A DNA stretch of 64,000 nt from Lysobacterales bacterium (lineage in GTDB: Bacteria > Pseudomonadota > Gammaproteobacteria > Xanthomonadales > Marinicellaceae), in NCBI GenBank assembly GCA_027067055.1, contig JAMOMK010000055.1, forward strand, positions 1 through 64,000, read 5' to 3'. The notes below the pieces were generated by a model. That model was not told the origin of the DNA. It was given only the letters and a program-made list of their open reading frames with translations, and made no database searches. This document shows, in pieces, positions 42,055-61,446 of the stretch. A program made the position numbers and the translations under genes. The stretch's first letter is position 1, and each line of letters begins with the position of its first letter.

Positions 42055-42828
42055 ATGAAGTATACTAATCTGATTTCTGCACAAGAACTGCAATTTTTCC
42101 AAAAAAACGGATATTTGGTTAAACGTGAATTTGTTGATTTGTCTGTGGTTGAAGCCATCCAAAACAAAGTGCTTGAGCATCTTAAAAATAGAGTTAAGCC
42201 TTTTGAACTAGAACAAGAAGTGCATTATCCAGGCTCACCCAAAACCAAAGAAGAGCAGGGTGGTGATACCATCAGACGCTTGTTATTGGCTTATTCTCGT
42301 GATGTGGTTTTTGCACAATGGCAAATGAGCCATAAAGCAACGCGTGTTTTAAAGGCATTGTTTGATTCAGAAACGCTATATTTAGTTCAGTCACACCACA
42401 ATTGCATTATGACTAAACAGCCTCGCTATTCATCAGAAACACATTGGCATAAAGACACACGGTATTGGGATTTTGAAAACCAGCAGTTAATCAATACCTG
42501 GTTACCACTAGGTGATGAAACACTTGAGAATGGTTGTTTGCAAGTCATTCCTGGCTCTCATTTATGGGACGCTCCCAAAGACAGACTTGATGAGCGTTTA
42601 TTTTTGCGTAAAGATTTAGCCAGCAATCAAGAGTGGTTGGAAAAATCTATTGATGTTGAGTTAAATAGGGGGGATTTATTGTTTTTTCATGCAGCGATTT
42701 TTCACGCTGCAGGCAGAAATAAAACTCAACAATCTAAAAATGCACTAGTTTCGACTTATCACAGTGAAAAAAATCAGGAAATAGTCAGTCCATTTCCTGA
42801 TTTGAAGCCAGTTAAGGTATTGGATTAA
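42055..42828 (+). CDS. Phytanoyl-CoA dioxygenase (PhyH) family protein
   Basis: The 257-residue product is an Fe(II)/2-oxoglutarate oxygenase. The metal triad is visible as HWHKDTRYWDF (HxD) and the distal His in LFFHAAIFHAAGRN, with the 2-oxoglutarate-binding Arg downstream. The N-terminal LSAQELQFFQKNGYLVKREFVD is typical of the family. Substrates in this family vary (fatty acyl, ectoine, small hydroxyl compounds) and cannot be inferred. It is convergent with the lipoprotein gene that overlaps its last bases. Confidence 0.88.
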   Translation: MKYTNLISAQELQFFQKNGYLVKREFVDLSVVEAIQNKVLEHLKNRVKPFELEQEVHYPGSPKTKEEQGGDTIRRLLLAYSRDVVFAQWQMSHKATRVLKALFDSETLYLVQSHHNCIMTKQPRYSSETHWHKDTRYWDFENQQLINTWLPLGDETLENGCLQVIPGSHLWDAPKDRLDERLFLRKDLASNQEWLEKSIDVELNRGDLLFFHAAIFHAAGRNKTQQSKNALVSTYHSEKNQEIVSPFPDLKPVKVLD

Positions 42829-44102
42829 AATATCTTAACTTTTTTTGCTGTTTCTTCACAGAGTTCATTCAATAACCATGATTTGAGGTTTTCAATATCG
42901 CGGTCGCTATTGGGGTTGTATAATTCAATGGTGGCAATTTTATAGCTTTGATTCTGCATCTTGCCCCTAACACGAGTGCCTCCTGATTTTGTCACGCGTA
43001 GTCTACTTGCTGTTTGCTTTAAGGCATCATAAAATTGCAGATAGCCTGGCGAATATTTTTTGACAAAAATCTGTGGGCAGTGAGATTCTTTAAAAGTCAC
43101 TTTACCATCAAACAGGGAAGAGTTAACATTATTGACTATTCTTGTGCCGTTACCATTAAGTTGCACAGTAGAGCCTTTGACAAATGCATCTGCAGTGAGC
43201 ATGTGCATTAGCATTGATTTGACACTGTCCTTGTTCTCTGCATTTATTAGAAATTTATAAACCCAACCTAAAGCTTCTTTGTCATCTTTAAAATTTGGTA
43301 TGGATATTTCTTCAAGTTGAGAAAAAGCCCCTTTAGCTTGTTTTTCAGTTTTGATTGCTTGTAAGTTTGGTATTTTTTGTAACTCGGCATAGCTGTAGTT
43401 TTTTGATTCAATTGTTTGACATTTTTCACTCTCGTCAATAAAACGATTAAATGGTGAGTTAATGTTTTCTCGATAAAAGCGGATGACTTTGAGGCACTGT
43501 TTTGTGTCAACTCGGTTGTTTCCTATTTTTTGTACATACTTTGTTTGCATATTTATTTTGAAAGAATCAGGAGAATACCAAAACACTTCTTTTGCCTCGT
43601 CATCAGAAGGAATAGAGATAACGGGCTCAAAGTCAACAAAGTCTCGGTAACTTGGAAATAATTGAGTAATATCTTTTGTCACCAATTCAATCATTTTTGA
43701 CTCTTTTGGTAAGGGTAGACCAAAAATTTGTGTGGTTAATGGTTTAATCGCTGCAAAATCATAATTTTCACCATTAACTTCAAAACGAACAAATCCTCCA
43801 ACTTTTAACTCGGCATCTGGAAATTCAGCAATTTTAGCATTGGTTTTATAGGAAAAGCCTTTTTGCCAACGTTTGCGCAATTGATAAGTTGAGAAGTTTC
43901 CTGCATTATCGGATAGTTTTATATCATAACGTCCCTTTTTCTTCAAAAATGATAACACTTGTTTATCAGTTGGTTTGGATGAAAAGGATGTTTTTAATGG
44001 TTCGTTTGTATCGATTTCCTCTACGTTTTCACCCCCACAAGCTGTCAATAAAAATAGGCTTGTAACAAGCAAAAATGCTGTTAATGTGTTTTCCCCAATC
44101 AT
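42825..44102 (-). CDS. Large exported lipoprotein
   Basis: The product is about 425 residues from ATG 44102. GTG codons slightly upstream overlap the preceding stop. The signal peptide has a lipobox, FLLVTSLFLLTAC-GG, so the protein is a lipoprotein. The +2 Gly fits outer-membrane sorting. The body is soluble, with no family I recognise: residues ~40-200 mixed alpha/beta (KRWQKGFSYKTNAKIAEFPDAELKVGGFVRFEV), and a C-terminal half with NNVNSSLFDGKVTFKESHCP and LRVTKSGGTRVRGKMQNQSYKIATIELYNP. It starts 5 bases after the BspA-like gene and is probably its partner. Confidence 0.78.
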   Translation of the reverse strand: MIGENTLTAFLLVTSLFLLTACGGENVEEIDTNEPLKTSFSSKPTDKQVLSFLKKKGRYDIKLSDNAGNFSTYQLRKRWQKGFSYKTNAKIAEFPDAELKVGGFVRFEVNGENYDFAAIKPLTTQIFGLPLPKESKMIELVTKDITQLFPSYRDFVDFEPVISIPSDDEAKEVFWYSPDSFKINMQTKYVQKIGNNRVDTKQCLKVIRFYRENINSPFNRFIDESEKCQTIESKNYSYAELQKIPNLQAIKTEKQAKGAFSQLEEISIPNFKDDKEALGWVYKFLINAENKDSVKSMLMHMLTADAFVKGSTVQLNGNGTRIVNNVNSSLFDGKVTFKESHCPQIFVKKYSPGYLQFYDALKQTASRLRVTKSGGTRVRGKMQNQSYKIATIELYNPNSDRDIENLKSWLLNELCEETAKKVKIF

Positions 44103-44107
44103 TTTAT

Positions 44108-45187
44108 TCACCACTGTAATGTTATTGTTTTAGTGTTGTCGATATCAAGCCACTGTTGCTTTATCCATTGGTCATCAATAAGATAGCTCACCTGAACTTG
44201 TAAAACACCTAAATCGTTTCTGATGTGGATGCGCATGTTTTCTTTATTGTTTTTATCCATGCCTTTGACGATAAGGTGAGGTTCTTGATCTAAGGTGTCG
44301 AGTTTAACCTCTGAAAAGTCATAGGAGATTTGTTGTTTTGCTGTTTTAACTATAATGACTTCTTCAAAACTGTTTTTAAAAAGAATATCACAAGCAAAAG
44401 TATGACCTCCATCGGTTATAGTCCAAGTATCATTAGCGATAAGGCTTGCACGTGCATTTTGAGCATCCAATGAACAGTATTGAGAAAAACCTCCATTAAA
44501 CGAGATATTAGGTTTTACAACTTGTGCATCCCAAGAAATTAATAAGGCATCATAATTTGTTGATGATAATGTCACTCCTGCAAACATATTAAAGAAATTA
44601 GTTACATTGATAACATTCCATGAACTAATATCTTCATCAAATGATGTTGCGCTAATAAACATTGAGCTTAAACTACTTATATTACTTGTATCCCAATTCC
44701 AATCTGCCATTCCATTGCCAATATTAGTGGCATTAACAAACATAAATGACAGGTTCGTACAATTAGTTAAATTAGGGGTGTCTAAGGCATTATTGACTAA
44801 ATTGCTGGCTCCATCAAAAGCTTTATTCATAGAAGTCCATGCATTGGTTCCCCATTGATCAATAGATAAAATTTTATCTTTTTCAACTCCACTATTGATG
44901 TAAATACGAGGAAATGTTCCAAATATGCGAATAGTATGAACTCCTGCACTGCCATAATCGTGCACGGCATCCCCTGTAACTCCTGTTTGATCAGGAATCA
45001 TATCATTATCCCAATCAATTGAATAATTATAGGTTTCGCCAATGACTGTTGGAATAGTAATCACTGTATCAGATGTAGTTGTTTCCCATGTAGTGACAAA
45101 ATGATCACTTGGCGCGGCAAATAAGCTGTTAGCATAGAATATTGTTGCTAAAATAGTTAAGAATTTAATTGTCAATAAACGGAGCAT
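44108..45187 (-). CDS. Secreted BspA/DUF285-type leucine-rich protein with NSFE motif
   Basis: In the 359-residue product, the signal peptide (residues 1-24) is followed by a PKD-like strand region (TWETTTSDTVITIPTVIGETYNYSIDWDNDMIPDQTG) and DUF285 repeats of the 'MF..AT.FDxDISSWNVxNVTNFxxMF' kind (about 125-215). At ~275 is DILFKNSFEEV, the NGFE-type motif with N-to-S change. It is not terminal here: ~85 residues with an Ig-like tail (YDFSEVKLDTLDQEPHLIVKGMD.. IRNDLGVLQVQVSYLIDD) follow. The gene is divergent from a TPR-type regulator gene, and 45253-45285 holds a likely binding site. DUF285 proteins elsewhere are surface adhesins. Confidence 0.8.
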   Translation of the reverse strand: MLRLLTIKFLTILATIFYANSLFAAPSDHFVTTWETTTSDTVITIPTVIGETYNYSIDWDNDMIPDQTGVTGDAVHDYGSAGVHTIRIFGTFPRIYINSGVEKDKILSIDQWGTNAWTSMNKAFDGASNLVNNALDTPNLTNCTNLSFMFVNATNIGNGMADWNWDTSNISSLSSMFISATSFDEDISSWNVINVTNFFNMFAGVTLSSTNYDALLISWDAQVVKPNISFNGGFSQYCSLDAQNARASLIANDTWTITDGGHTFACDILFKNSFEEVIIVKTAKQQISYDFSEVKLDTLDQEPHLIVKGMDKNNKENMRIHIRNDLGVLQVQVSYLIDDQWIKQQWLDIDNTKTITLQW

Positions 45188-45252
45188 TTAGGTTTCCTCT
45201 GTAATTCCTATTTTTAAAGGTGCTACTATAATGTGCAGTATGAAAAAATCCC

Positions 45253-45285
45253 TGACCAATTGCTGACTATTTCCTGACTAATTGC
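45253..45285. promoter_or_regulatory. Three 11-bp phased TGAC repeats (putative regulator box)
   Basis: TGACCAATTGC, TGACTATTTCC and TGACTAATTGC stand in a row with exact 11-bp steps between the divergent BspA-like operon and the 45420-47693 regulator gene. Eleven-bp direct repeats are how OmpR/PhoB-type winged-helix domains bind in tandem. This regulator has such a domain, and the paralogous locus has a similar array at 59092-59124. Confidence 0.6.
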
Positions 45286-45419
45286 TAAACCCTTGTATTT
45301 ATTGATTTTCTTGTGTGTATTGTTTTTTGTATTTTTAATTGAGTTTGTATTGTTTTAATGTATATTTTTTTAGTAATACGTTATTATTAACCTGTATTTT
45401 TCAATTAGCTTTTCATTCA

Positions 45420-47693
45420 ATGCACTTTAAAATAAATGATTTTTCTTATAATGACTCCAATGGGCAAGTCACTAAAGGCCAAGAAAAAATTCAGTTAACA
45501 AAGATTCAAAAAAAACTTTTTGATTATTTTCTAGCACATCCAAAAACCACCCTTTCCAAACAAACTTTAATGGATGAAGTGTGGGGACGCACTGTAACTG
45601 AAAATTCAATTGAAAAAACCTTATCAAAGTTACGTAATATTATTGAAGACAATCCATTAAAACCTGAAATATTAATCACTCACTTTGGTCATGGTATTAG
45701 TTTTGAAGGAAAAGTCAGTTGTATAAATGAGCAGGAATCTAAAACCAATGAATCCGAAAAATCTAATCATAAAAACCAACCAAAACTACTGTTTGCATTG
45801 ATTGCACTTGTGCTCATGGCATTGTTATGGATTTTTTATCCATTCAATCAAAAACAACAAAAACCCATTATGCAAAGTATAGCAAAGAATCAACGAATTC
45901 TGGTTTTGCCGATGGAGTTTAAAGCGGGTAGCGTTAATCAAAAGGATGAAAAAAATATTAACCACCTTATGCAATCTGAGTTGACACAACTGGATAGCGA
46001 AGGTGTGGTTTTATTTAACAATGAGGGAGTGAATAATAATAAAGTATTGAATAAACATTGGCAAATTGATAACAGTTTAATCTTTATGCAAACTCGAGTG
46101 AGTAAAAATGGGGCTATATACGATGCTGTTGTTGAATTGTCTAATGGTGTTAATACCTTGAAAAAAGTTAAAATTAGTGCCACTAACTTGCTCGATTTAG
46201 CCACGGCGCAAACTCAGTTGATTTCCGATCTGCATCAGGGGGTTACTATTGATAAAAATAATAACAAAGAACCCGACAAATATTTACAAGCCCTTGATTT
46301 CATTGAAAATAAAAAATGGCAATCAGCACAGAAACTATTGGAAGAGATTTTAGATAATAATGACAAGGATTTTCAAGCTCGTTTTAGTTTGGCACAGGTG
46401 TATTACGAACTAAAGGCATTTGATAAAGCCATTGCTCAGTTACAAACACTTAAATCAACGTCCTATTACCGCAACCACAGTGCTCAAATTGAACTGGAGT
46501 TGACAGAAAACTTCATTCGCCAAGATAAACACAAAAAAATTATTGCAGATTTAACGGCTTATCTCAGTTCACACTTAAGCATTGGCAAAGTCAAAAAAGC
46601 CAAGATAATGCAACGTTTAGCGGATGCGTATGTGGCTGTAGGTAATACAGCTGAGGCATTGAAGTTCTATAAACAATCTGTTTTGGATATTAATGACAAG
46701 CTGTTCCCTGAATATTTTACTCGCAGTTATTTCGGACAAGCCAGAATTGCTAATCAAGTTTCAACCGGTAAGGGTGTCTATGAGTTGTTTAGTAAAGCGT
46801 TACATTATGCCAAACAAGAAAACAATATTGCCCATCAGGCAACCATTCTTGACAGTCTTTCAGTTTTACTTTTTCATAGTAATCAGTGGCAAAAGGGTTT
46901 GCAATTAAAAAGAGAATCCATTGCACTAATGGAACTAATTGATGATAAAAGTATTGCCATGGGAACTGGTTTGGGCGTTTTAGCTTCTTATTTGTTAGAG
47001 CGTGGCTTGTTTAATGAAGGGCGAGAAGTGGTGGATAGAATAAAAAATATAGCCGATGAAATTAAATCCGATCACTTGACTTTAATTTATAACCATTATG
47101 ATATTTCTCTAGAAATGAATGCGGGTAATTTTGATTATTGCCAGAGAGAAATAGATAAAGAATTTGCTTTGGCAAAAAAGATTAATGACTTTGCCATGAT
47201 GCTTAACAATGTGTTTTTACAGATGGAATTGTTGTTGGCTCGAAAAGATACATTAAATTTTTTGAGTATCTGGCAAGAAAAAAATAAATTGTTTCAACAA
47301 CCAGGACTGGAGCGTTATCAAATATTTATGGACTTATATTTGGCTCGTTACTATGAAATGGTCGGTAATGATGAAAAGGCAATAGAACTGATTGCTAAAG
47401 TTTCTGAGTTGGCTAAACAAAGCAGCGACTTTAAGTTTTTAAGTGATGCACAAGTCACCCTGGCAAAAATTTATTTACAATCAAATCCTCAAAAAGCATT
47501 GGATATTCTCATGGCGCTAGAACAATACAATCCAAATCCAAACCCTTACCTCGAAGTTAAGGCCAAAGCTTTAGCCAAACTAGATAAAAAAACACAAGCA
47601 TTAAGTCTGATGATGGAAGCCAAAGCAGCTTATAATGAAGCATGGAAACCTGAGAACCAAGCTTTACTAGAAGAGCTCCAACAATCTATTTGA
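45420..47693 (+). CDS. Membrane-spanning CadC-like regulator with TPR domain (A)
   Basis: The product is 757 residues from ATG 45420; an upstream Met would add a hydrophobic leader not shared with the paralogue. The N-terminal OmpR-type winged helix (residues ~1-100, QLTKIQKKLFDYFLAHPKTTLSKQTLMDEVWGRTVTENSIEKTLSKLRNIIEDNP..HFGHGISF) is followed by one membrane helix near 125-145 (LLFALIALVLMALLWIFYPF), then about 600 residues of periplasmic helical TPR repeats. ToxR/CadC-type proteins bind DNA from the membrane and sense the outside. The paralogue at 59209-61446 matches along the whole length. The gene is divergent from a secreted-protein operon. It ends at a strong hairpin terminator (47776-47799). 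Confidence 0.85.
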   Translation: MHFKINDFSYNDSNGQVTKGQEKIQLTKIQKKLFDYFLAHPKTTLSKQTLMDEVWGRTVTENSIEKTLSKLRNIIEDNPLKPEILITHFGHGISFEGKVSCINEQESKTNESEKSNHKNQPKLLFALIALVLMALLWIFYPFNQKQQKPIMQSIAKNQRILVLPMEFKAGSVNQKDEKNINHLMQSELTQLDSEGVVLFNNEGVNNNKVLNKHWQIDNSLIFMQTRVSKNGAIYDAVVELSNGVNTLKKVKISATNLLDLATAQTQLISDLHQGVTIDKNNNKEPDKYLQALDFIENKKWQSAQKLLEEILDNNDKDFQARFSLAQVYYELKAFDKAIAQLQTLKSTSYYRNHSAQIELELTENFIRQDKHKKIIADLTAYLSSHLSIGKVKKAKIMQRLADAYVAVGNTAEALKFYKQSVLDINDKLFPEYFTRSYFGQARIANQVSTGKGVYELFSKALHYAKQENNIAHQATILDSLSVLLFHSNQWQKGLQLKRESIALMELIDDKSIAMGTGLGVLASYLLERGLFNEGREVVDRIKNIADEIKSDHLTLIYNHYDISLEMNAGNFDYCQREIDKEFALAKKINDFAMMLNNVFLQMELLLARKDTLNFLSIWQEKNKLFQQPGLERYQIFMDLYLARYYEMVGNDEKAIELIAKVSELAKQSSDFKFLSDAQVTLAKIYLQSNPQKALDILMALEQYNPNPNPYLEVKAKALAKLDKKTQALSLMMEAKAAYNEAWKPENQALLEELQQSI

Positions 47694-47775
47694 TAGCTTA
47701 TTCATCTAAATGGGTGTCGCACCTATCGTCTGATACTTCAATGATGTGATATTTATGAATAGCATTTTTGATAGG

Positions 47776-47799
47776 GGCACTTCTATGAATCGAAGTGCC
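47776..47799. terminator. Bidirectional hairpin terminator
   Basis: GGCACTTC (47776-47783) and GAAGTGCC (47792-47799) form a perfect 8-bp stem. A T-rich stretch lies on the right and A/T-rich sequence on the left. It sits between the convergent genes ending at 47693 and 47828. Confidence 0.8.
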
Positions 47800-47827
47800 T
47801 TTATTGGCTTGGAGTGTAATAAAAAGT

Positions 47828-48727: not shown

Positions 48728-50026
48728 TTATTCAAAACCATCGCTAAAAATAATATCATTTTGTTGAAAGACATAACCCGCTCCTGCTTCTGTGTCTTTT
48801 TCATTGTCTAGCCAAGCGCCAGCGGCAACTGAGTCCACACCTAATTCAATTGATTTTCCTAATTCAGATTGTGTTGAAGTGGAAGTTGGTACAAATGTGT
48901 TGATTTCTTGCCAGTTGGGACCTACTTTACGGTACATGTAAATTTTGCCATTATTAACTGAACTGCTTGATAATTTTCTTGGTGCTGAGACGATTGCAAG
49001 GTTTCCTGATAAATCAACAGCCGTGCCATATTTATCAAAATTAGCAGCATCACTTGCAATTAGTGTAAAAGACTTATCCCATGAAGAAGTCGTGTTATTG
49101 TAATCATAAATAAAAGCAGCACCTGCTGATGAGCCACCAGTATCTTGCCCAATTGCTCCGATAATCACCTTTCCATTATCAAGTTTGACACTGTAGCCAA
49201 ATGAATCGTTTGCTACTCCAGCGGTATCAATGATTTTATTGGTTAATAAAAAGGAATCAATACCTTTTGCAGAGGTGTCAGAAAAGACATAAGCCGCTCC
49301 TTTTCCACCATGACCAAAGGCACCAATTAAGGCTTTACCTAAACTAAGGCTGACAGAAAAACCAAACTTATCATTAACAGCGGCATCGTTTGCCAGTAGT
49401 TGAGCTGGGTCGGTATTCCATGACCCCATTTGGAATGAAAAAATATAGGCAGCTCCTGCATTAGATACTGCCGAGCTTTTATCTTTATATGCACCAACTA
49501 AAGCCTTATCCCCCAGTAGACTAACTGAGATTCCAAAATTGGCGTTGATTACTTGAGTTGCCACAGAACTCATGTCCAACTGTTCTGTTTGATTCCAGTT
49601 GGTTCCATCAAAATCAAAAATATAAGCAGTCCCAGTATTTCCCACAGCATTAACAGTTTTATAGGGTGCTCCAACAAGCAAACGATTGCCATCCAAGCTA
49701 ATCGAATGTCCGAATTCATCATTGTCACTGGCATTTAAAGCTGTGATAATAGCCGTTTCTTGCCAACTACTGCCATCAAAAGTATAAATATAGACAGCTC
49801 CATTATTAGACAATCCACCTGAATCATAAAAAGGTGCTCCAAATGCAGCAATATTTCCTGAAATACTTGCAGATGTGCCAAGATGGTCTTGAGTAAGTCC
49901 GTCGCTGGCAAGTAGCTTATTTACTGTTATTCCATTGATTTGTTGAATGCTTTTATTATCTATTTCTTGTTGAGCATTCACTGCCAATGAAAATAGCATT
50001 AGGGTGAATAATAAATTGTTTTTCAT
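48728..50026 (-). CDS. Secreted FG-GAP beta-propeller protein ending in SDGFE
   Basis: The 432-residue product has a signal peptide (MKNNLLFTLMLFSLAVNA). About seven FG-GAP/integrin-alpha-type repeats follow, each like 'FGHSISLDGNRLLVGAPYKTVNAVGNTGTAYIFDFDGTNWNQTEQL', 50-60 residues apart, enough for a seven-bladed propeller. The protein stops exactly in NDIIFSDGFE, the motif also terminal in the S8 protease. It is the last gene of the eight-gene operon, 17 bases after the DUF3592 gene. Likely an exported carbohydrate- or protein-binding propeller. Confidence 0.88.
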   Translation of the reverse strand: MKNNLLFTLMLFSLAVNAQQEIDNKSIQQINGITVNKLLASDGLTQDHLGTSASISGNIAAFGAPFYDSGGLSNNGAVYIYTFDGSSWQETAIITALNASDNDEFGHSISLDGNRLLVGAPYKTVNAVGNTGTAYIFDFDGTNWNQTEQLDMSSVATQVINANFGISVSLLGDKALVGAYKDKSSAVSNAGAAYIFSFQMGSWNTDPAQLLANDAAVNDKFGFSVSLSLGKALIGAFGHGGKGAAYVFSDTSAKGIDSFLLTNKIIDTAGVANDSFGYSVKLDNGKVIIGAIGQDTGGSSAGAAFIYDYNNTTSSWDKSFTLIASDAANFDKYGTAVDLSGNLAIVSAPRKLSSSSVNNGKIYMYRKVGPNWQEINTFVPTSTSTQSELGKSIELGVDSVAAGAWLDNEKDTEAGAGYVFQQNDIIFSDGFE

Positions 50027-50043
50027 AATTATTTTCTCTGTAT

Positions 50044-50646
50044 TTAATGATTTAACGGATTAACTGAATTTGGTTGACCTAAATGTTTATCTTTTTTATC
50101 TTCTAATCGTTTTTGTGATAGATGTCTAAATTGTCTTATAGATTTATTCAGGCTGTATAAAGCTAATAAGGCAATTAGAAACATGATGATTTCAAATCGG
50201 TTATTGCTATTGGGTAATTTATCTCGAAATAAAAAAGAACGTGTTGGTGGGTTTTTGCTAATATTAACCTTTATTCTTTGCCCTTTTTGTAAATAGGTGT
50301 TGATGGCTTCATAGGCATCTGTTCTACCATTGGCTATGATATAATTTCCCAAATTACTGATTTTATCTGACTCATAGGTCGTCCCCATAGAGTCGTACTG
50401 GTATTGTGCATGAACGTAGTAGGTGTGAGTGGTTCTATTAGCTAATGGCCCTTGATTTTTTTTAATTTTATCAACTACTTTTGATTGGGTGATTATGGCA
50501 GTGCCTTCATACCATAGTGTTTCATCAAATTTAAATAAAAATTCAGTAATAGGTCGATGAAAAGCGATAAATAAAAACAATAGTGCCATCAATATTTCAG
50601 CAGTCATTTCTTTTATCAGTTTTGATTTTTGTTGTTTTATAGTCAT
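50044..50646 (-). CDS. DUF3592 domain membrane protein (1)
   Basis: In the 200-residue product, two membrane segments flank a ~90-residue extracytoplasmic domain (FETLWYEGTAIITQSKVVDKIKKNQG..YYVHAQYQYDSMGTTYESDKISNLGNYIIANGRTDAYEAINTYLQKGQRIKVNISKNPPTRSFL). This is the family's Y-x-Y..G..Y-S-D pattern ending in V-x-x-NPxxP. The gene overlaps the preceding DUF3592 gene by 4 bases. The C-terminal tail is polar and cytoplasmic. Related to 50643-51143 and 58433-58996 in the same operon. Confidence 0.82.
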   Translation of the reverse strand: MTIKQQKSKLIKEMTAEILMALLFLFIAFHRPITEFLFKFDETLWYEGTAIITQSKVVDKIKKNQGPLANRTTHTYYVHAQYQYDSMGTTYESDKISNLGNYIIANGRTDAYEAINTYLQKGQRIKVNISKNPPTRSFLFRDKLPNSNNRFEIIMFLIALLALYSLNKSIRQFRHLSQKRLEDKKDKHLGQPNSVNPLNH

Positions 50647-51143
50647 CTCATCCTATTTCTTAAAATCAAGCCAAAAATTACAATAAAGAAAAGTCCAACG
50701 ATAAGCGGAATAAAAGTCCAAATGTTTGCTCCTGTCTCTATAACCGCTGTTTTAGGGTCTTTAGGGTCATAGTAAATACTGATTTTATTTCCTTTTTGGT
50801 AGGGAGAGTTGTCTAACCATTGTTGTGCAATAAAGCGATTTTTTAAGCGACTTTTAATGATAGCACCATCACCATAGCTGTATTTTTCTGACTGATAGTG
50901 TTGACCATGTACTTGGTATTGGTACAAAGCTGAGACTTCAAAAGTGGTTTGTTTGCTCGTTGTGCTATTGGAAGAGCTACGTGTCTCGATTAAATTTATT
51001 TTAGTCACTGTTGCTTCGGTTTTCTGCCAATCCCTAGTTTGCTGTGCCAGTAAGATAAACCTGACACCAAAAAACACCAGTACCAAGCCGATAATCAGCG
51101 GTATGAAAAGCATGTTATTAATAGAGTAAGCGGGTCTTCTCAT
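50643..51143 (-). CDS. DUF3592 domain membrane protein (2)
   Basis: The 166-residue product has membrane helices at residues 11-31 (FIPLIIGLVLVFFGVRFILL) and 140-160 (IWTFIPLIVGLFFIVIFGLIL). Between them is the DUF3592 domain (TEATVTKINLIETRSS..FEVSALYQYQVHGQHYQSEKYSYGDGAIIKSRLKNRFIAQQWLDNSPYQKGNKISIYYDPKDPKTAVIETG). The conserved IYYDPKDPKTAVI is a hallmark. It overlaps both neighbouring genes by 4 bases (50643-50646 and 51140-51143), so it is strongly coupled. Function of the family is unknown. Confidence 0.85.
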   Translation of the reverse strand: MRRPAYSINNMLFIPLIIGLVLVFFGVRFILLAQQTRDWQKTEATVTKINLIETRSSSNSTTSKQTTFEVSALYQYQVHGQHYQSEKYSYGDGAIIKSRLKNRFIAQQWLDNSPYQKGNKISIYYDPKDPKTAVIETGANIWTFIPLIVGLFFIVIFGLILRNRMR

Positions 51144-53245: not shown

Positions 53246-54097
53246 TTAAATTTTTTTATAAATGATATAGGCAATAATGCCCATAATGATAATTGGTAAT
53301 CGCCCAAATTTGACGGTGATAAAAAATAGCAAGCCAATCAACAAAACACAGAGTAAAAGGTAAAGCAGAATCAACCATACTCCTCTCCACATAAGTTTCT
53401 TTGGATTATCTCGGGCTAGAATTTCTTGTTTACTTAATTCTAGTTCTTGACTAATAGGTTTGTTTTCGATACTTTTTACTAATTTAAGCAGGTGTCGAAA
53501 CCGCTGGTTTAATAACTCAGTTTCAAAATCATCTAAATTGGCAAATGTTGTGCCAAAGGTGAGTTTTTCAGGGATTAAAACCATTCCCCACGCTAGGATT
53601 TTTGTCTTTTCATCTGTTAAATTTTGCAAAGTGTTCTGTACTTCGGCATCATTAATAAGTGAGTGAGCAAACAACTCATCAGGTGAATAGACTTCTTTAT
53701 TCAAGTAGTCCATATTAATTCGTTTGAATTTTTTATAACGCATTATCCATTTGGTGATTCTTTTTATCCATTTTCCTTTAATTTTTTTGGCTATCACTAA
53801 GCGTGTTTTTTGCTTAACTGACAATTCTGTTTTCATTCGAATGCCTTGAAAAGTACGGTATCTGACTTGATGATCATTGTCTATGCCTTGGTACCTAGTG
53901 CGTTTCAACATCGAAAATGTACATTTTATTTCTTTACCATTAATGACGCCTTTGTATTTTGCAAAAGCAAGAATCCCATCATCAAAGGGTTTAAATCCAA
54001 TTGATTCAAATTGTTGGGTAAGGTATTGACGGATTAATTCTTTTCCACCAATACCTACAACCGAGCCAATGGATTTGAGTTGCGGTTTACTTATCAT
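53246..54097 (-). CDS. Membrane-anchored hypothetical protein of the surface operon
   Basis: The 283-residue product is mostly cytoplasmic, with a hydrophobic hairpin at its C-terminus (MWRGVWLILLYLLLCVLLIGLLFFITVKFGRLPIIIMGIIAYIIY), so it is a tail-anchored membrane protein. The N-terminal half is a beta-rich domain (DGILAFAKYKGVINGKEIKCTFSMLKRTRYQGIDNDHQVRYRTFQGIRMKTELSVKQKTRLVIAKK). The middle half is helical. No family assigned. It overlaps the giant beta-helix gene by 11 bases and precedes the PH-like pair by 23 bases, placing it firmly in the operon. Confidence 0.65.
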   Translation of the reverse strand: MISKPQLKSIGSVVGIGGKELIRQYLTQQFESIGFKPFDDGILAFAKYKGVINGKEIKCTFSMLKRTRYQGIDNDHQVRYRTFQGIRMKTELSVKQKTRLVIAKKIKGKWIKRITKWIMRYKKFKRINMDYLNKEVYSPDELFAHSLINDAEVQNTLQNLTDEKTKILAWGMVLIPEKLTFGTTFANLDDFETELLNQRFRHLLKLVKSIENKPISQELELSKQEILARDNPKKLMWRGVWLILLYLLLCVLLIGLLFFITVKFGRLPIIIMGIIAYIIYKKI

Positions 54098-57000
54098 GAC
54101 TTATCCACGCAGATTGGTTTATTTCTTGATTGATAGTATCCACATATACATGACGGTAACGTACCGTGTTATTTTCTTTGTCTATTTGTATAAAGTGATA
54201 AATAGTAGAACCGTCATCAATAAAATAATAATGCGATTTCAAACTGTCTTGTTGATCAAAGGCTATGACGGCTTGATACAGTTGTTTGTTTAATGACGTT
54301 TCAAAACCGTTTTGGAAAATAATTTCAAGTAAGCTGGTGGCAATCGCTGTGTTATTGCTGGGATCTGTATCGGTTAAAAATGGCGCAGGATTGAGTGTGG
54401 CCTGAACCGAGAGTGATACCGTTGGTGTTGCTGTGGCTAATATATCGACACTGAACTGTATTTGACTATTGGCATCAATACTCACCATTTCAGATATATC
54501 TCCCATTCCTGCTGTTTGTGAACAGTATTGAACCGCTGCTAGACATTGCCAATTAACATAGCTTAATCCGACTGGTTCGGTTGATTGCAGTACAGCTTGG
54601 TGGATGTTTATTGGACTGTTATTGGTCAATGTGAAAACCAAATTAGTCACTGTAGACGTGTTGAATGTTGGATTATTGGGCGTAATACTTATGCTAATAT
54701 CTCCTGATGTATCATCATCATCTATTCGTGCAAATGGTGGGTTAACTGTGCTTGTAGCGATTAATGCATTGTTTGTAGTAGTTAAATTGATGGTTAATAT
54801 TTCAAGACCTTCAGAGTCAATGTCATCCAATACATTGATAGGAATAATTACCGAACTAGCAAGAGCGGGGATAGTCGCAACACCGATGCCAGTTGGAGTT
54901 GGAGCCATGTAGTCAACCCCAGGAGTTGGGGGGCCTGCTAAAAAGTAATTTGTTTCAGTATCAGTTTCACTTACACCTCCTGTGAGAGTTAATTCAAACC
55001 CACCATTAGTGGAAGGCTCGGCTAAATCCTGAGAGTTACTTACTGAGACTTCACCATTTTCATCATCATTGATTTGAATACTCAGTCCATTAGTCATAGC
55101 ATCAATACTCACCGTAGCTAACCCTCCGCTTATAGTGGTAATGGTAATAGTTAAATCTTCAGCAGCTTCAATAAAATTGTCATCAATGGGATTAATGCTT
55201 ATATCTACAGAGTTATTTAAGGCAGAGAGAACGACTGAGCCAGATAATGCCATATAATCAGAATTAACTGTAGCAGTGTTTCCATTGTAAGTGTAATCTA
55301 TTATTATGTCTTGAAGGTCACTTAATGGTACATCATTTGGCGGAGCCATATCTTTCAGTAACTTAAATCTTAGGGTGGCAGCTGTTGCAGGCTCACTGGC
55401 ATGATTAATGACTTCCAGAGCAATTTTACTATTTAAATCATTATCTGTATTAATGAAATCCAAAACTTGAATTGGGATAGCATCATAGTTTGCATCATTA
55501 CTTAAAACCGAATATAAAACTGAATAATTGACATCTCCATCACTGATAAAATCATCAACGCCTTGAATGGTTACGGTTTGAGATTGATTCCAATTAACAG
55601 CAGTAAAGGTTAATTGTGCCGGAGCATTAACAGTTCCTTCATTAAGATTAGTGCTGGCAAAAGCTACATCTACATCATCTGTAGGTTGTGCGAGTAATCT
55701 AACACCAAGAATAACACCGTTCGAGTTCTCACTGGTGGTATTGCCACCACCGACACTGACTCTGGCTGCACTCAATGCTATTGATGCCTCATCCGCTCCT
55801 ATATATGGGAATGTATTATTACGAATATCACCATCAATATCAGTGCTGGTACTAATAACATGTATTCCTGCATAATCATTATCCCCATTGGCTGTATTGG
55901 CTAAATGATAATCTTCATTAACTTTATCAACAAAATCGGCAAATTTATCCAAACTATAATAATCACTATCAGTAAAATTTTTATAGGATTGCAAATCAGT
56001 AAATTCTTGTGAAAACCATTCAATTAAATTTGTAGCTAATCCATTTGCATAGAGATTATAGTTTATGTTTATATTATCACTTGATTGTAAGGAACCAAAA
56101 TTAATGGATAAGACAACATCATTAAATGTATCAATAATATTATTAATAATGTCTAAATTAGTCGTATCATTACCAGTCGATGCTAAGGTTTTAATGCCGA
56201 AAAGATGAGCTACAAGTGTGTTATGGTAAATATTCCAATAACTACTAGAGTTCTCTAGTAGAATATCTGTAACCGAATGAATAAAATTGTTTTTTATCAG
56301 GGCTCGATAGTTTTCTTCCCCGCTACTATTGTTAATATATATACCAAAACAATTTGTACCACCTCCACTACATGTACTAATTTTATTTAATTCAATAACG
56401 GTAGGATAAAATTGAGTTGATAGAACATTAAAAATTTCGATTGCCCTATAATTTAAATGACTGGAATCAATGGTATTACCGCTAATTGTTTGACCGTGCA
56501 TATTATCAATGGAAATAGCAGAATTTCTTTGAGAGTTAAATGTGTTGTTAGTAATTGTGTTTTTGTAAAAGCCATAGGAGTCAGATTCAACCGTAATACC
56601 AGTGCCACCATCTGTAAACAAGCATCCTTCAATCGTATTGCCTTTGGATTGTTCAATGGTAATGCCACCATTGTTTATTCCAATCATTTCAAAATCGATA
56701 TTTTTAATGACAAAGAAATAAGAATTAATTAATTTAATCACATTGTTTTCTGAGCCAGGGCCCTTAGAGGTTAATAGTGGGTGGTTACCTGGGTTAGCAG
56801 CTGCAATAGTAATAATGTCAAAGTAATTTTGTTTAACTATATTGCTGATATAAGCTTTAGTTGCATAAGTGCCTGCTCTAATTTTAAACTTTACTTCACC
56901 TTTTGTGCCTCGATGATATAAATTATCAAATGCTTCTTGCGGTGTTAAAAAATCAGGAGAGCTTCCCCCAACTGTATAAAATGAACCATTATTTGAATCA

Positions 57001-58436
57001 ATATTATCTAACGGCACAACAACAAGAGGGGATTGATCGGCACCAACATAAACATTGATGCTCGTGCGAATATCTCCATCAATGTCATCTACAACTTCAT
57101 CTTGAGGGTGAGCCACTAAATCAGCATCAGCAATCAGTAATAATGGTAAATGCAAGTCATTAATGTCACCTGATGTCGTTCCTAAAAATAATATAAATCT
57201 ACTCAAGCCTACATTCGGATGGATCGCTTGTACATGTGTTTGAAAACCATCAAAAGTTGCATAGTTATCACTAACTCCAGGGCTGCTTTCTCCCCATGAG
57301 ACTAATGTGCTGCCAGAGGTATATATGTTATTATCAACAAGTTGTGAAATTCCATCAATATTAGAATCAAGAGGAACACTCAATGTGATACCACCACCAG
57401 TGTTCATTATTATATTATTTATTATACTGAGTTGGGTTGTCGCTGAAACGAGAATGCCAATATCAGTTGCCTGTTCTGTTCTAATAGAGTTATGCATAAA
57501 CTTGATGCGATCACCCAATTGAGCTGCAATACTATTGCCATTTGGGTTGGTTATTGAGATAAAGTTATTATAAACAAGCATATTTCCTGAACTATCATTG
57601 TTTAAAACCATGCCAAAAACACCTTTTTGTGAAATATTTATTTTGTTATTTCTAATTATTGCAATACCTTCAAAATCTAAAGCAATATAATCCATAGAAG
57701 TGAATGTTGATAATGCATCAATAAAGTTGTTATTTTCAATGACCGAATCAATATCATCTATTTTTACATTTATTCCTCGATTTGCTTGCCCAGAAAATGT
57801 ATTGTTTTTAATAATGATTGAAGGTATTGAAAAGCCACCAAGAAACCCTTTTATCCCTTGAAATCCTAAACTAAAAGTATTTCCATCTATAATAAATCCT
57901 TCACTAATTCCACTGGCGCTAGAGATAGAGCTAAATAGTAACAACTCATTCCTGAGATCAAAATTTGAAGACGGTACTAACCCTTGAAATGTACAATTAG
58001 CTACAGTCACTGAATCACTATTATTGACAATGTATAAAATAGTTTGAGCATCAGAATTTGTCGCTTCAAAACGAATACCTACAAAGCTAATAAATTCCAC
58101 ACTTTCAAGTTTGACAATCCAATTGTTAGCCAAGACCTGCGTGGAATTTTTCCATATAACATTCGCTGTAGGGCTCGCACGTTTGAAAACCACTCGATCA
58201 GTTGTGTTTGCCATTGTTCTATCAATCGAGTTCATGGTAATTTGTTCATCATAGGTTCCTGTTCTTATCCTGAAACTTACCGGTGCTGATATACCATTGA
58301 CCTCTAAATCCGCAACTGCTGCTGCAATAGAGCTGTAATCTTCACTGCCACTTTGGTTGATGAAATAATCACCAGCTAAAGGTGCTGCTTGAGAAACAAA
58401 GCTAAGGAAAATAGATAATAATAGTATTTTTTTCAT
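54087..58436 (-). CDS. Giant secreted beta-helix protein with Calx-beta-like domains and NGFE motif
   Basis: The product is about 1449 residues from ATG 58436, which overlaps the DUF3592 stop as ATGA. It starts with a signal peptide (MKKILLLSIFLSFVSQA). Two right-handed parallel beta-helix sections follow (~20-440 and ~470-880), with short 'IxNNxFxGxxxxGIxVxxxxxxxIxxNxF' turns (NosD-like). Calx-beta-like repeats come next at ~890-1290 (VGGGNTTSENSNGVILGVRLLAQPTDDVDVAFAS...). A DUF11-type Ig domain (~1290-1370) is followed by EIIFQNGFETSLNK. After that motif comes a further ~70-residue tail ending INQSAWISHDK, as in the BspA-like protein. Likely an extracellular adhesin or polysaccharide-binding protein. 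It carries no catalytic motif. Confidence 0.85.
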   Translation of the reverse strand: MKKILLLSIFLSFVSQAAPLAGDYFINQSGSEDYSSIAAAVADLEVNGISAPVSFRIRTGTYDEQITMNSIDRTMANTTDRVVFKRASPTANVIWKNSTQVLANNWIVKLESVEFISFVGIRFEATNSDAQTILYIVNNSDSVTVANCTFQGLVPSSNFDLRNELLLFSSISSASGISEGFIIDGNTFSLGFQGIKGFLGGFSIPSIIIKNNTFSGQANRGINVKIDDIDSVIENNNFIDALSTFTSMDYIALDFEGIAIIRNNKINISQKGVFGMVLNNDSSGNMLVYNNFISITNPNGNSIAAQLGDRIKFMHNSIRTEQATDIGILVSATTQLSIINNIIMNTGGGITLSVPLDSNIDGISQLVDNNIYTSGSTLVSWGESSPGVSDNYATFDGFQTHVQAIHPNVGLSRFILFLGTTSGDINDLHLPLLLIADADLVAHPQDEVVDDIDGDIRTSINVYVGADQSPLVVVPLDNIDSNNGSFYTVGGSSPDFLTPQEAFDNLYHRGTKGEVKFKIRAGTYATKAYISNIVKQNYFDIITIAAANPGNHPLLTSKGPGSENNVIKLINSYFFVIKNIDFEMIGINNGGITIEQSKGNTIEGCLFTDGGTGITVESDSYGFYKNTITNNTFNSQRNSAISIDNMHGQTISGNTIDSSHLNYRAIEIFNVLSTQFYPTVIELNKISTCSGGGTNCFGIYINNSSGEENYRALIKNNFIHSVTDILLENSSSYWNIYHNTLVAHLFGIKTLASTGNDTTNLDIINNIIDTFNDVVLSINFGSLQSSDNININYNLYANGLATNLIEWFSQEFTDLQSYKNFTDSDYYSLDKFADFVDKVNEDYHLANTANGDNDYAGIHVISTSTDIDGDIRNNTFPYIGADEASIALSAARVSVGGGNTTSENSNGVILGVRLLAQPTDDVDVAFASTNLNEGTVNAPAQLTFTAVNWNQSQTVTIQGVDDFISDGDVNYSVLYSVLSNDANYDAIPIQVLDFINTDNDLNSKIALEVINHASEPATAATLRFKLLKDMAPPNDVPLSDLQDIIIDYTYNGNTATVNSDYMALSGSVVLSALNNSVDISINPIDDNFIEAAEDLTITITTISGGLATVSIDAMTNGLSIQINDDENGEVSVSNSQDLAEPSTNGGFELTLTGGVSETDTETNYFLAGPPTPGVDYMAPTPTGIGVATIPALASSVIIPINVLDDIDSEGLEILTINLTTTNNALIATSTVNPPFARIDDDDTSGDISISITPNNPTFNTSTVTNLVFTLTNNSPINIHQAVLQSTEPVGLSYVNWQCLAAVQYCSQTAGMGDISEMVSIDANSQIQFSVDILATATPTVSLSVQATLNPAPFLTDTDPSNNTAIATSLLEIIFQNGFETSLNKQLYQAVIAFDQQDSLKSHYYFIDDGSTIYHFIQIDKENNTVRYRHVYVDTINQEINQSAWISHDK

Positions 58437-58996
58437 GAGTTTTTTCTCCATGGAAGATTTTCAGGTTTGATAACATCAAAAGCGATAAGTGTGAGTAAAA
58501 TAGCAAAGCCAAGGAAAGCGATGGCGAAAATTGTAGGGAAAAAAGAAGCATTTTTTTGGCTGATGCTGGCTATTTCGGGTTTGTTAGGGTTGTAAAAAAC
58601 CGTCACGGCTGTTCCTACTTTATAAACTAATGCGGCTTTTCTGGCATCGGCTTTATTTTTGAATGTTCGGCTTGTTCCATCTGAAATTGACCTGCCCCTA
58701 CCTGAGATAATATTTAAATTAAAATTCTTACTGGTATAATCAACACCATTAACTCGATAGCTGTATTCTATTCGTTGTAAATAAACCAGATCCGATCGAG
58801 GTGAAAAGGTGCTTTGCCTATGTTTACGGTAGATCGTGTGTTCTTGCACTCCTGAAAACAAGACAATACCTTTGACTGATTGCCAACCTCCCGTATTTAT
58901 TCTATCTAGATATTTATTAATGGAACTGATGACAACAGCTATGGCAAGTGGCAAAATAACAATGGCAATCAACTTTCTTTTAAGTACCAAACTCAT
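58433..58996 (-). CDS. DUF3592 domain membrane protein (3), first gene of the operon
   Basis: The 187-residue product has two membrane helices (ILPLAIAVVISSINKYL, and PTIFAIAFLGFAILLTLIAFDVI) around a DUF3592 domain (GWQSVKGIVLFSGVQEHTIYRKHRQS..YLQRIEYSYRVNGVDYTSKNFNLNIISGRGRSISDGT..ALVYKVGTAVTVFYNPNKPEIASIS). The FYNPNKPEIA signature fits. It is the promoter-proximal gene of the eight-gene operon and overlaps the giant gene by 4 bases. A 212-bp divergent region with phased repeats separates it from the regulator gene. Confidence 0.82.
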   Translation of the reverse strand: MSLVLKRKLIAIVILPLAIAVVISSINKYLDRINTGGWQSVKGIVLFSGVQEHTIYRKHRQSTFSPRSDLVYLQRIEYSYRVNGVDYTSKNFNLNIISGRGRSISDGTSRTFKNKADARKAALVYKVGTAVTVFYNPNKPEIASISQKNASFFPTIFAIAFLGFAILLTLIAFDVIKPENLPWRKNS

Positions 58997-59091
58997 GATG
59001 AAATATTCTTGGTAATTGTACTAGTTTTCATTTTCATTTTTTATTTATTGATTTGAATGGTTTAATTCTAAGGAAAGTAAATAATTCATAT

Positions 59092-59124
59092 CAGAAAATT
59101 TGGTGAATTTTTAGTGAATTTATC
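59092..59124. promoter_or_regulatory. Three 11-bp phased GTGAATTT-type repeats
   Basis: CAGAAAATTTG (59092-59102), GTGAATTTTTA (59103-59113) and GTGAATTTATC (59114-59124) are in step with an 11-bp period. They lie between the surface operon (first gene at 58996) and the regulator starting at 59209. The period matches tandem OmpR-type winged-helix sites and the array at 45253-45285. It may serve both divergent promoters. Confidence 0.6.
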
Positions 59125-59208
59125 TTAAAACTAGCTAAATTGAAGGCATTAACATAAAATAACTTTATTCGAGAAATATAATAAAACAAAACTAATCATA
59201 ATAACTTT

Positions 59209-61446
59209 ATGCCCCTTCAAATCGATAGTTTTAGCTATGATGAAGCCACTGGAATCATCAAAAAGCAGCATAAAGAGTACAAGTTAACTAAACTCCAAAA
59301 GAAACTATTTGATTACTTTCTTGCACACCCTAAGCAAATTATTGATAAAGAAACCTTGATGCAGGAAGTGTGGGGACGAATCGTCACCGATAATACTATT
59401 AATAAGTTTATTTCAGCTTTGCGACTCTATGCTGAAGAGGATTCATCTCAGCCCAAAGTTATTGTCACCCATTTTGGACATGGCATTAGTTTTGAGGGTA
59501 ATATTGTGCAACAAGGGTTGGTTACCAAGAAAAATTTATCCCTTTGGTCTGTTATGTCTGTTGCCTTACTGTTAATTATTATCTCTTTGGTTTATTTCTT
59601 CAATCACAACCCTAAAAGCCCTAACAATGCAGAAAAAATTCAAATCGATCACGTGCTTATCCTGCCAACCGATTATGAAAATTTAAAGGTAGATGATATC
59701 CAGAAGCAAGGTTTAGCAGAATTGATGCAATCAGTTTTGAAAATCTCTGATTCAGAAGGTCAAGTGCTATTTGGTAAACGAACACAGAGTAACCGTGATG
59801 CTATTGAGAAGTATTGGCGCTTGGATAAAAAGCTTGTCGTGCTACAATCCAGAGTGCAAAAAAATGGAGAAACCTATCAAGCTATCATTAATTTATCACA
59901 GGGCAATAAAACCTTAGATAAGGCAATTATTAAAGGCAATAGTTTGGCAGATTTAATGCAAGGTCAAATTAACTTTATTGCCCAATATCAATCGGGTGGT
60001 GAAAATAAAATAACCACAAGCATTGATGATGATTTTATTAGAGCAATGGCTTTTGTTAAAAAAAGAGATTTTAAACATGCCCAAAAATTATTAAGAAGTG
60101 TTGTTGAAGATAATGCTGAGAATGACCAAGCCCGTTTTCAATTGGCACAAGTGAATGCACAATTAAAAGAGTATAACAAAAGCTTAGCTCAACTTCATAC
60201 ACTTAAAGCAACAGTTTTTTATACTACTAATAGCACTGAAGTTGAATTAGCGGTTGCTGAAGTTTTATTTAAACAAAACAAATACCAAAACATCATTGAT
60301 AATTTAAAACAATACCAAGTACAGAACTTGGATGTCAGTGAGGTAAAGAAAGCCAAAATCAAGCTACAAATGGCAGATGCCTATATTGCCATTGGAGAAA
60401 TTCAAAATGCCATGAAGTTTTATAAACAAGCAATAGTGCATGTGAATTCAGAATTTAACCCTAATATTTTTGCCCAAAGTTATTATGGACAAGGAAGAGT
60501 TTTAGAAAGCCAATCTAACGCCCAAGACACCTTTAGTTACTTTGAGAAAGCTTTAGCCTATGCTCAAGAAGCAAATGATTACACAATACAAATACTCGCC
60601 TTGGATGAAATGGCTAAGATTTTACTCGTTGGTAACGAATGGGAAAAAGGATTGGCTTTAAAAAAGCAAGCCATAGAAATTATGGAGATGGAAGATGACA
60701 AAGGTAAAGTTTCTCAAGGTTTAGGGACATTAGCAGCTTTCTTAATACAGACAGGGCACTTTAGTCAGGCAAAAGAAATAAATGATCGACTCGGACGCAT
60801 CGCAAAGGAACTCAAAAATGATAGTTTATTACTGACTTATTTACATTACGATAGTATTGTATTGATGAACTTCTTTAAATTTGAAAATGCTCGAAGTCAA
60901 ATTGATAAGCACCTAAAAATTGCTCAAAACAGTAAAAATTTAGCTATGCAACTGGATAATGCCTTTTTAGAATTTGAATTGCGTCTTGCACAAAAAGACC
61001 TATCAAACTTCAAAGCCGAATGGGGCAGGCGTACGCAATTAATTAAAGACATGGGTTTTGAACGCTATCAAGTGTATATGGACTTTTACTTGGCACGCTA
61101 TTACAAACAAATAGATAAAGCAGATAAAGCTATTGAAATTATCAACAAAATTTCTGAACAAGCTAAAGCCAATAATGACATAAAAATATTGGTTGATGCA
61201 CAAAATCAATTAGCTGAAATATACACGAAAACAGACCCTAAAAAAGCTTTGGATATTTTAAATAACATCGAACAATATCAGCCCGATGCTAACCCATATT
61301 TGGAACTTAAAGCACTAGCTTTAGTTAAGTTAGGACGAAAACTAGAGGCATTAAACCTTCTTAATCAAGCTAAACTTGTTTTTCATGAAGCCTGGAAGTC
61401 TGAAAATGAAATATTGCTAGAGCAGTTAAAACAAGAGGTGAATTAA
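59209..61446 (+). CDS. Membrane-spanning CadC-like regulator with TPR domain (B)
   Basis: The 745-residue paralogue of 45420-47693 has winged helix ~1-95 (YKLTKLQKKLFDYFLAHPKQIIDKETLMQEVWGRIVTDNTINKFISALRLYAEEDSSQPKVIVTHFGHGISF) and one membrane helix at ~106-125 (SVMSVALLLIIISLVYFF). Periplasmic TPR-rich sequence follows to the end, including the unit QARFQLAQVNAQLKEYNKSLAQLHTLKATVFY, shared with the paralogue. No receiver or kinase partner is present, so it should act like ToxR/CadC. It is divergent from the eight-gene surface operon, whose promoter it most likely controls. Its stop overlaps the ispB stop by 4 bases (convergent). Confidence 0.86.
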   Translation: MPLQIDSFSYDEATGIIKKQHKEYKLTKLQKKLFDYFLAHPKQIIDKETLMQEVWGRIVTDNTINKFISALRLYAEEDSSQPKVIVTHFGHGISFEGNIVQQGLVTKKNLSLWSVMSVALLLIIISLVYFFNHNPKSPNNAEKIQIDHVLILPTDYENLKVDDIQKQGLAELMQSVLKISDSEGQVLFGKRTQSNRDAIEKYWRLDKKLVVLQSRVQKNGETYQAIINLSQGNKTLDKAIIKGNSLADLMQGQINFIAQYQSGGENKITTSIDDDFIRAMAFVKKRDFKHAQKLLRSVVEDNAENDQARFQLAQVNAQLKEYNKSLAQLHTLKATVFYTTNSTEVELAVAEVLFKQNKYQNIIDNLKQYQVQNLDVSEVKKAKIKLQMADAYIAIGEIQNAMKFYKQAIVHVNSEFNPNIFAQSYYGQGRVLESQSNAQDTFSYFEKALAYAQEANDYTIQILALDEMAKILLVGNEWEKGLALKKQAIEIMEMEDDKGKVSQGLGTLAAFLIQTGHFSQAKEINDRLGRIAKELKNDSLLLTYLHYDSIVLMNFFKFENARSQIDKHLKIAQNSKNLAMQLDNAFLEFELRLAQKDLSNFKAEWGRRTQLIKDMGFERYQVYMDFYLARYYKQIDKADKAIEIINKISEQAKANNDIKILVDAQNQLAEIYTKTDPKKALDILNNIEQYQPDANPYLELKALALVKLGRKLEALNLLNQAKLVFHEAWKSENEILLEQLKQEVN

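Follow-up and report, generated by a model that had tools for sequence, protein, structure and literature searches.

The closest described relatives of the proteins considered here are membrane-bound transcription regulators of the CadC/ToxR type. According to the available sections of one account, CadC carries a periplasmic alpha/beta domain followed by a helical tetratricopeptide repeat (TPR) domain (PMC9214523). Among the regulators of surface structures that are tethered to the membrane are PsaE, which goes with the PsaA fimbriae, and MarT, which goes with the autotransporter MisL, as set out in the accessible parts of two sources (PMC6657601, PMC9214523). The co-component partners of such regulators are described, in the sections available, as mostly lipocalin-like and encoded beside the regulator (PMC9214523), and how the sensing of a signal by ToxR-like proteins leads to gene activation is described as poorly understood in the available text (PMC6657601). 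In this work we have analysed a stretch of 64,000 nucleotides (the window; contig JAMOMK010000055.1, positions 1 to 64,000, assembly GCA_027067055.1) from a Lysobacterales bacterium, a Marinicella relative with a genome of 3.42 Mb in 145 contigs. Specifically, we were interested in two of its genes, regulator A (45420..47693, plus strand, 757 amino acids) and regulator B (59209..61446, plus strand, 745 amino acids). We consider it likely that A and B belong to an expanded CadC-type one-component family, whose winged helix, sitting on an array of short DNA repeats, locally activates the neighbouring secreted-protein operon.

Both genes are intact open reading frames (ORFs) and their products are 41% identical along the whole length (311 of 758 aligned positions; 42% by genome BLAST). 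The longest ORF of A begins at a TTG codon at 45339, and from the alignment with B the ATG at 45420 is the likely start. The domain order is the same in the two proteins: a winged helix, one predicted membrane helix, an alpha/beta domain and TPRs. The winged helix was recognized as Trans_reg_C (PF00486) with 44.6 bits in A and 43.4 bits in B, the Pfam cut-off being 26.2, and Pfam also matched TPRs in both. An AlphaFold2 model of B, calculated from an alignment of 65 family members, had a mean predicted local distance difference test score (pLDDT) of 90. It places the winged helix at residues 1-101, a helix in membrane position at 116-132, the alpha/beta domain at 149-262 and a TPR superhelix of about 470 residues at 274-744. 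The helix at 116-132 is the only one predicted to cross the membrane, a topology given by prediction, and it aligns with the membrane segment of CadC. An hhalign comparison with E. coli CadC covered the winged helix, the membrane segment and the alpha/beta domain and ran into the first helices (probability 98.5%, E 2.8e-15), and against solved structures the winged helix matched the PhoB domain (E 1.5e-18) and the CadC domain (E 6e-18). With the whole B model, Foldseek returned only TPR-rich proteins in its best 50 matches, CadC not among them, a result which is uninformative either way. The Pfam family CadC_C1 (PF18500) was found in E. coli CadC and not in A or B, the alpha/beta domain gave nothing over the Pfam cut-off in three family members, and no receiver or kinase domain was matched in A or B at E values up to 0.1. 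Nor is a partner gene of the co-component type read together with A or B, the genes that follow them (47828-48667 and 61443-62432) being convergent. The first of these encodes a predicted exported, very basic protein with no Pfam match, and look-alikes of it adjoin A- or B-type regulators at loci L059, L063 and L069.

An earlier note on this DNA, made by a model from the letters alone, had described A and B as paralogous regulators of the CadC type with a winged helix, a membrane helix and TPRs, and the identity, the Pfam matches, the model of B and the alignment to CadC all agree with that description. Its figure of about 600 residues of periplasmic TPRs was too high, as the alpha/beta domain comes first and the TPR part has about 470. 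The note had also regarded the arrangement as a duplicated, two-copy system, which did not hold. BLAST found eight full-length family members in the genome, namely A, B, three at 36-40% identity and three at 22-24%, together with a ninth row which was a winged-helix match only. A family profile search added C86 (G000:C86:31079-33925, L230), a divergent ninth member of 948 amino acids which matches the profile in two stretches and has an insertion before the TPRs. A hypothesis restricted to the pair A and B is ruled out by these paralogues. The named relatives that were found come mostly from Lysobacterales and Marinicella assemblies, the best match of B being 74% identical. In a tree of 65 members, A groups with proteins of four relatives and B with those of three (support 1.0 in each case), and the two clades are sisters (support 0.96). 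Proteins of several species are found in both clades, so that the divergence of A and B predates that of these species. By our own gene calls, the neighbouring operon has predicted exported proteins at all eight full-length loci of the genome, and regulator and operon are divergent at seven of them, the C102 locus being co-directional.

The association with secreted proteins extends to the relatives. We compared 66 family regulators from this genome and 19 relatives, some relatives' loci (those on short contigs and a few others) having been left out. Many of the cargo proteins carry the motif IFx[DN][GS]FE; among 81 motif proteins near family regulators it stands at the very C terminus in 57 and about 70-115 residues before the end in 24. 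With a relaxed form of the motif, in which the strict one was widened to variants found among the misses, a motif protein lies no more than three genes away from 55 of the 66 family regulators, the figures for other winged-helix regulators and for background genes being 13 of 24 and 23 of 223; the strict motif gave 44/66, 11/24 and 21/223. At least four of the 11 family misses sit on contigs under 9 kb. The check proposed earlier, whether TPR-CadC homologues elsewhere also face secreted-protein operons, thus came out in favour of the association. In all these counts genes are the longest ORFs and signal peptides were assigned by eye or with a crude rule; loci that are orthologous cannot count as independent, and the background (394 kb) comes from this genome only. 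When 71 of the 81 cargo proteins were scanned (the longest ones and one short protein were left out), the most common families were DUF285 with 19 proteins, choice-of-anchor Q with 9 and three FG-GAP models with 5 each. Where the motif is internal, a tail follows it. The tail of the cargo next to A (A-type, 85 positions) has 30 matches in seven of 41 genomes, all belonging to the genus of the present genome; all eight tails in the genome itself are at family-regulator loci (five loci), and of the 30 matches overall, 23 have a family regulator, or a fragment of one, no farther than about 8 kb away. The B-type tail has just three occurrences, one in this genome and the others in two relatives out of 40, and all three are at family-regulator loci, although at one of them, L076, the local regulator is not close to B (20-21% identity).

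The intergenic regions of A and B point to how the operons may be controlled. Upstream of the cargo of A there is an operator-like array (45251..45283, minus strand) of three direct repeats of 11 base pairs (bp), AATTAGTCAGG, AAATAGTCAGC and AATTGGTCAGG, which read towards the cargo. A -10-like hexamer, TATAGT (45225..45230, minus strand), lies 22 bp past the last TCA of this array, and the start codon of the cargo is at 45187. The array of B (59094..59126, minus strand) consists of AATTCAC, AATTCAC and a degenerate third unit, TTTTC, with the TC core at 11-bp steps towards the operon, and the -10-like hexamer TAGAAT (59065..59070, minus strand) has the same 22-bp offset as at A, the operon starting at 58996. 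Among the 66 upstream regions of family regulators 11 was the best period in 33, and it reached z>=3.5 in 21; that level was attained by none of the 60 promoters from the background and by 2 of the 26 genes for other winged-helix proteins. A scan of intergenic stretches found period-11 arrays in 56 of 355 at family loci, in 9 of 103 at control loci and in 5 of 147 in the background, while no other period from 8 to 15 exceeded 15/355. In the genome studied here arrays are present at seven of the eight loci, A, B, C71, C102, C103, C114 and C10, the last of which was recognized through the blind pattern described below. Out of 59 period-11 arrays (the 56 at family loci and three in the window), a selection by hand retained 43, each situated upstream of a cargo or divergent gene whose direction was used for reading the array. 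Read in this direction, 40 of the 43 have a TC or TCA core, with no TC phase at C71, C102 and the distal array of L060. At a distance of exactly 22 bp from the last TC(A), 24 of the 40 arrays are followed by a strong -10 hexamer, and any other offset was found in at most five.

This is the operator layout of PhoB, tandem 11-bp direct repeats directed towards the promoter, and it is present at A, B and many other family loci. In the available text of one study, PhoB is described as binding the direct repeats of the pho box in tandem (PMC3348028). By analogy, the cytoplasmic winged helix of A or B would bind its row of repeats head to tail, the bound regulator would sit just upstream of the -10 hexamer of the neighbouring secreted-protein operon, and it would recruit RNA polymerase there. 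A and B would then be dedicated local activators with one operator each in the genome. The family, its architecture, the linkage, the arrays, their orientation and the 22-bp register are supported by the sequences; that the regulator itself binds the array and that the effect is activation we infer. Direct control of the neighbouring operons appears well supported at this level, and the idea of the earlier note that each regulator controls the operon it faces is likewise borne out as far as sequence can tell, by operator-like arrays in a fixed register with the cargo promoter. Could the regulator instead act as a repressor, keeping the cargo promoter shut until repression is relieved? In principle, the polymerase can be hindered by a protein that sits immediately upstream of the -10. 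However, a repressor site needs no fixed register, whereas a single array-to--10 distance combined with a single orientation is the layout of an activator which replaces a -35, and we regard repression as unlikely. The orientation of the arrays also bears on the view that the linkage is a by-product of the duplication of a cassette of regulator and cargo, with no regulatory bond needed. The sister relationship of the A and B clades, each with several species, and the cargo types shared between loci would fit such a history. Nevertheless, the arrays keep their orientation and register to the cargo at L011, L068 and L077, whose regulators are co-directional or convergent, and also in stretches that lack a family regulator, and we give this view very little credence.

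The sequence of the repeats differs by regulator clade: GTCAG in the A clade, AATTCAC in the B clade and AATCAG in that of C103. In a comparison of 34 of 35 hand-made pairs, operator similarity correlated with winged-helix identity (Mantel r 0.60, with none of 5000 permutations as high). The GTCAG pattern of A, with at most one mismatch, has one site in the genome and its reversed control has none; the pattern of B, with at most two mismatches, also has one, as does its reversed control. A wider regulon of A or B was considered and dropped, since at the stringency used there was one site for each.

We also searched 41 genomes blindly with the pattern TCA-8-TCA-8-TCA-22-TANNNT, which gave 120 sites against three for the reversed pattern. 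Of the 120, 106 are in the two genera richest in the regulator family; the strict pattern has five sites in the present genome, including that of A and without that of B, and it does not occur in the 394-kb background. Forty stretches were picked from the matches (new sites in G000, G008, G009 and G010, most or all of those in G012, G016, G019 and G021, and one in G018), several of which overlap family loci fetched earlier. They hold 48 sites, seven of them inside a called gene, and for 39 a gene starts at -60 to +150. The first gene after the site bears the motif in 22 of these 39 cases, compared with 8 of 343 background genes, and in 22 of 39 the gene starts 24-39 bases past the site. A scan of the gap around these sites is biased to 22, as 40 of its loci had been chosen by that very pattern. 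The motif-less matches include a DUF3592 gene, a second DUF3592-looking gene and a pst operon, which includes PhoU and a PhoR-like kinase and is the textbook target of PhoB. The pst match shows that the layout is that of PhoB-type sites, and PhoB or another response regulator might accordingly be thought to bind all the arrays, the neighbouring membrane regulators being bystanders. We find this very unlikely, as the array sequence varies by clade and tracks winged-helix similarity, the patterns of A and B are unique in the genome and arrays are enriched at family loci. As a separate observation, arrays stand before predicted exported proteins at G000:C10:19352 and 21327 (L190) and on contigs C38 and C68 of G009 (L195, L196), with no full-length family regulator in the stretch. 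At L117, L123 and L129, where the regulators are other winged-helix proteins, 11-bp arrays of a TGATGA type lie between the regulator and the cargo gene, and the arrangement may thus reach beyond this subfamily.

Several results weigh against local activation by family regulators as a general account. In half of the family upstream regions a period of 11 is not the best one, at C32 no array was found in the intergenic scan, and the upstream gene of 25 of the 66 family regulators is co-directional. C86 faces two predicted exported proteins which lack the motif, and no array at that locus scored 6.5; one of these proteins, judged by eye, ends like an IPTL-CTERM signal. The linkage is not unique to the subfamily, as the direct neighbour is a motif protein in 7 of 24 other winged-helix regulators. 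Operator similarity correlates almost as strongly with TPR identity (r 0.55) as with that of the winged helix, and for pairs below 60% winged-helix identity the correlation drops to r 0.35; shared descent of whole loci therefore explains much of it. Many blind sites have no family regulator in the stretch examined, so that control in trans or by other regulators must exist too, and one regulator for one neighbour is not the whole rule. Seven of the 30 A-type tails are away from regulators, in some cases on short contigs: three belong to G009, two to G004, one to G003 and one to G007.

Compared with solved structures, the superhelix of the TPR domain resembles NprR, Rap and domain III of MalT with VIA-align Z scores of 20-22 over 336-351 residues, and eukaryotic TPR proteins (APPBP2 and a subunit of the APC/C, the anaphase-promoting complex) score still higher, at Z 24-25; helical repeats score high in general with this tool. 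Presumably a periplasmic ligand sets the activity of the regulator; the best candidate is a peptide or protein that the TPR superhelix would hold and that possibly derives from the cargo. The most promising hint of what is sensed comes from the cargo tails. The chances are about even that the regulator activates its operon while the TPRs read an outside cue, such as a peptide, a sugar, an ion or a stress, which is unrelated to the condition of the cargo proteins. Such a cue is compatible with what the activation model says about the DNA. The likeness to MalT domain III, Rap and NprR, which are ligand or peptide receptors, would suit such a cue. CadC itself answers acid pH together with lysine, according to the available text of one study (PMC5430869). 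An outside cue alone leaves the placement of the tails, mostly at regulator loci, without explanation, although cassette duplication could supply one. A more specific proposal is a self-monitoring secretion circuit. In it the TPR superhelix would act in the periplasm as a receptor that recognizes the C-terminal part of the regulator's own cargo, the motif would mark a shared export or processing step, and the tail behind the motif would stay in, or be released into, the periplasm and so report the exit of the cargo, each regulator being tuned to its own tail. The suggestion of the earlier note that the TPRs could sense the surface proteins or their assembly is compatible with the placement of the tails, which fits a feedback loop and could equally reflect the duplication of whole cassettes. 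An AlphaFold2 model of the tail domain (pLDDT 77) had its best match in the PDB at E 1.9. We put the circuit forward as a doubtful possibility. If true, it would provide parallel, insulated feedback loops for the cell surface.

The genes which A and B face fit the earlier description in part. A faces two minus-strand genes. The nearer, cargo A1 (44108..45187), encodes a predicted exported DUF285/BspA-like (PARCEL) protein with the motif in the form LFKNSFE, behind which lies the A-type tail domain (44111..44359, minus strand). Cargo A2 (42825..44114, minus strand) is a predicted lipoprotein, its LTAC lipobox having been recognized by eye, with no family over the cut-off. That A faces a BspA-like protein and a lipoprotein, and B a run of eight genes, was described correctly in the earlier note. 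The run is on the minus strand, from 58996 to 48728; to call it an operon of secreted proteins goes too far, as no more than two of its eight products have the appearance of exported repeat proteins and the immediate neighbour of B is a DUF3592 protein. The first of these two is gene 2 (54087..58451), a predicted exported beta-helix protein of 1454 amino acids with the motif IFQNGFE and the B-type tail of 75 amino acids (54090..54314, minus strand), and the other is gene 8 (48728..50026), a predicted exported FG-GAP repeat protein which ends in IIFSDGFE. Three others are membrane proteins of the DUF3592 type, gene 1 next to B (58433..58996), gene 6 (50643..51143) and gene 7 (50044..50646), the last below the Pfam cut-off. 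The remaining three had no Pfam match over the cut-off: gene 3 (53246..54097), which has a hydrophobic C terminus, gene 4 (52203..53222), which by eye resembles gene 5, and gene 5 itself (51140..52177). DUF3592-like proteins are found no more than three genes away from 12 of 68 family regulators, the background having one such gene in 343, and of the genes led by an array, that of L192 is DUF3592 by Pfam and that of L213 by resemblance only.

The motif was also followed on its own. At the stop codon, an IFxNGFE-type motif has 48 sites in the present genome against none for the reversed pattern, and in its strictly C-terminal position it occurs in 36 of the 41 Lysobacterales genomes, with up to 72 sites per genome, and is absent from five. 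It has the look of a signal for export or anchoring. The bodies of motif proteins were matched by NCBIfam models, as choice-of-anchor Q in 9 of 71 and as M36 peptidases (myxosortase, rhombosortase type) in two. Type II secretion was tried as the machine behind the motif and set aside: GspD is over the cut-off in 38 of the 41 genomes and does not discriminate, because it is present in four of the five without motif sites. Among the open-access papers listed in our searches we found no description of a family of TPR-bearing CadC/ToxR-like regulators or of the motif IFx[DN][GS]FE, and the papers found there on the motif or on a sorting signal gave none of a motif-linked export or anchoring route in Lysobacterales. 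Elsewhere in the window, 24400-26502 encodes a protein with DinB, FGE-sulfatase and methyltransferase domains, which we take to resemble ovothiol synthase, and 26762-28690 a DUF1538 protein with a P-II domain.

Taken in this way, an odd gene pair becomes a whole class of loci whose promoters follow a rule that can be read from the sequence. With eight or more paralogues in a single genome, most of which have a clade-specific array in fixed register, the family amounts to a natural experiment in which DNA specificity, insulation and sensing can be compared. Since the rule appears to be shared by many motif-bearing secreted proteins, it would also give a handle on their export or anchoring route in Lysobacterales.

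How does the family compare with known systems? To the RRNPP receptors NprR and Rap and to domain III of MalT the likeness is in the predicted fold of the TPR superhelix, and a shared fold shows no shared ligand; NprR, Rap and MalT are receptors of small ligands or peptides and, unlike the TPR domain studied here, which is predicted to be periplasmic, they are cytoplasmic. PsaE and MarT adjoin their targets. As far as PsaE/PsaF and MarT/FidL with MisL are described in the sections available, A and B are like them in being winged-helix proteins, predicted to be membrane-tethered, which would regulate surface genes. In contrast to these pairs and to ToxR/ToxS, the genes after A and B are convergent and no partner there is read with the regulator. 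With PhoB the family has in common a similar winged helix, and the layout of array and -10 is the same as that before the pst operon. Unlike PhoB, it lacks a receiver domain and is predicted to be membrane-bound, and its arrays have three or four clade-specific repeats, the last TC(A) of which precedes the -10 by 22 bp. The likeness to CadC extends to the N-terminal OmpR/PhoB-type winged helix, the predicted single membrane helix and the succession of an alpha/beta and a TPR domain, as CadC is described in the part of the source at hand (PMC9214523), and to the position of the regulator gene beside its operon, as cadC lies beside cadBA. CadC is a shorter protein of 512 residues with a shorter helical domain, whereas the TPR domain of the family has about 470 residues and PF18500 was not detected. 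The Cad1 site of CadC, in the available description, extends from -153 to -113 and has an AT-rich quasi-palindromic core (PMC5430869), whereas the family has an 11-bp tandem array beside the -10 and many paralogous loci with secreted cargo.

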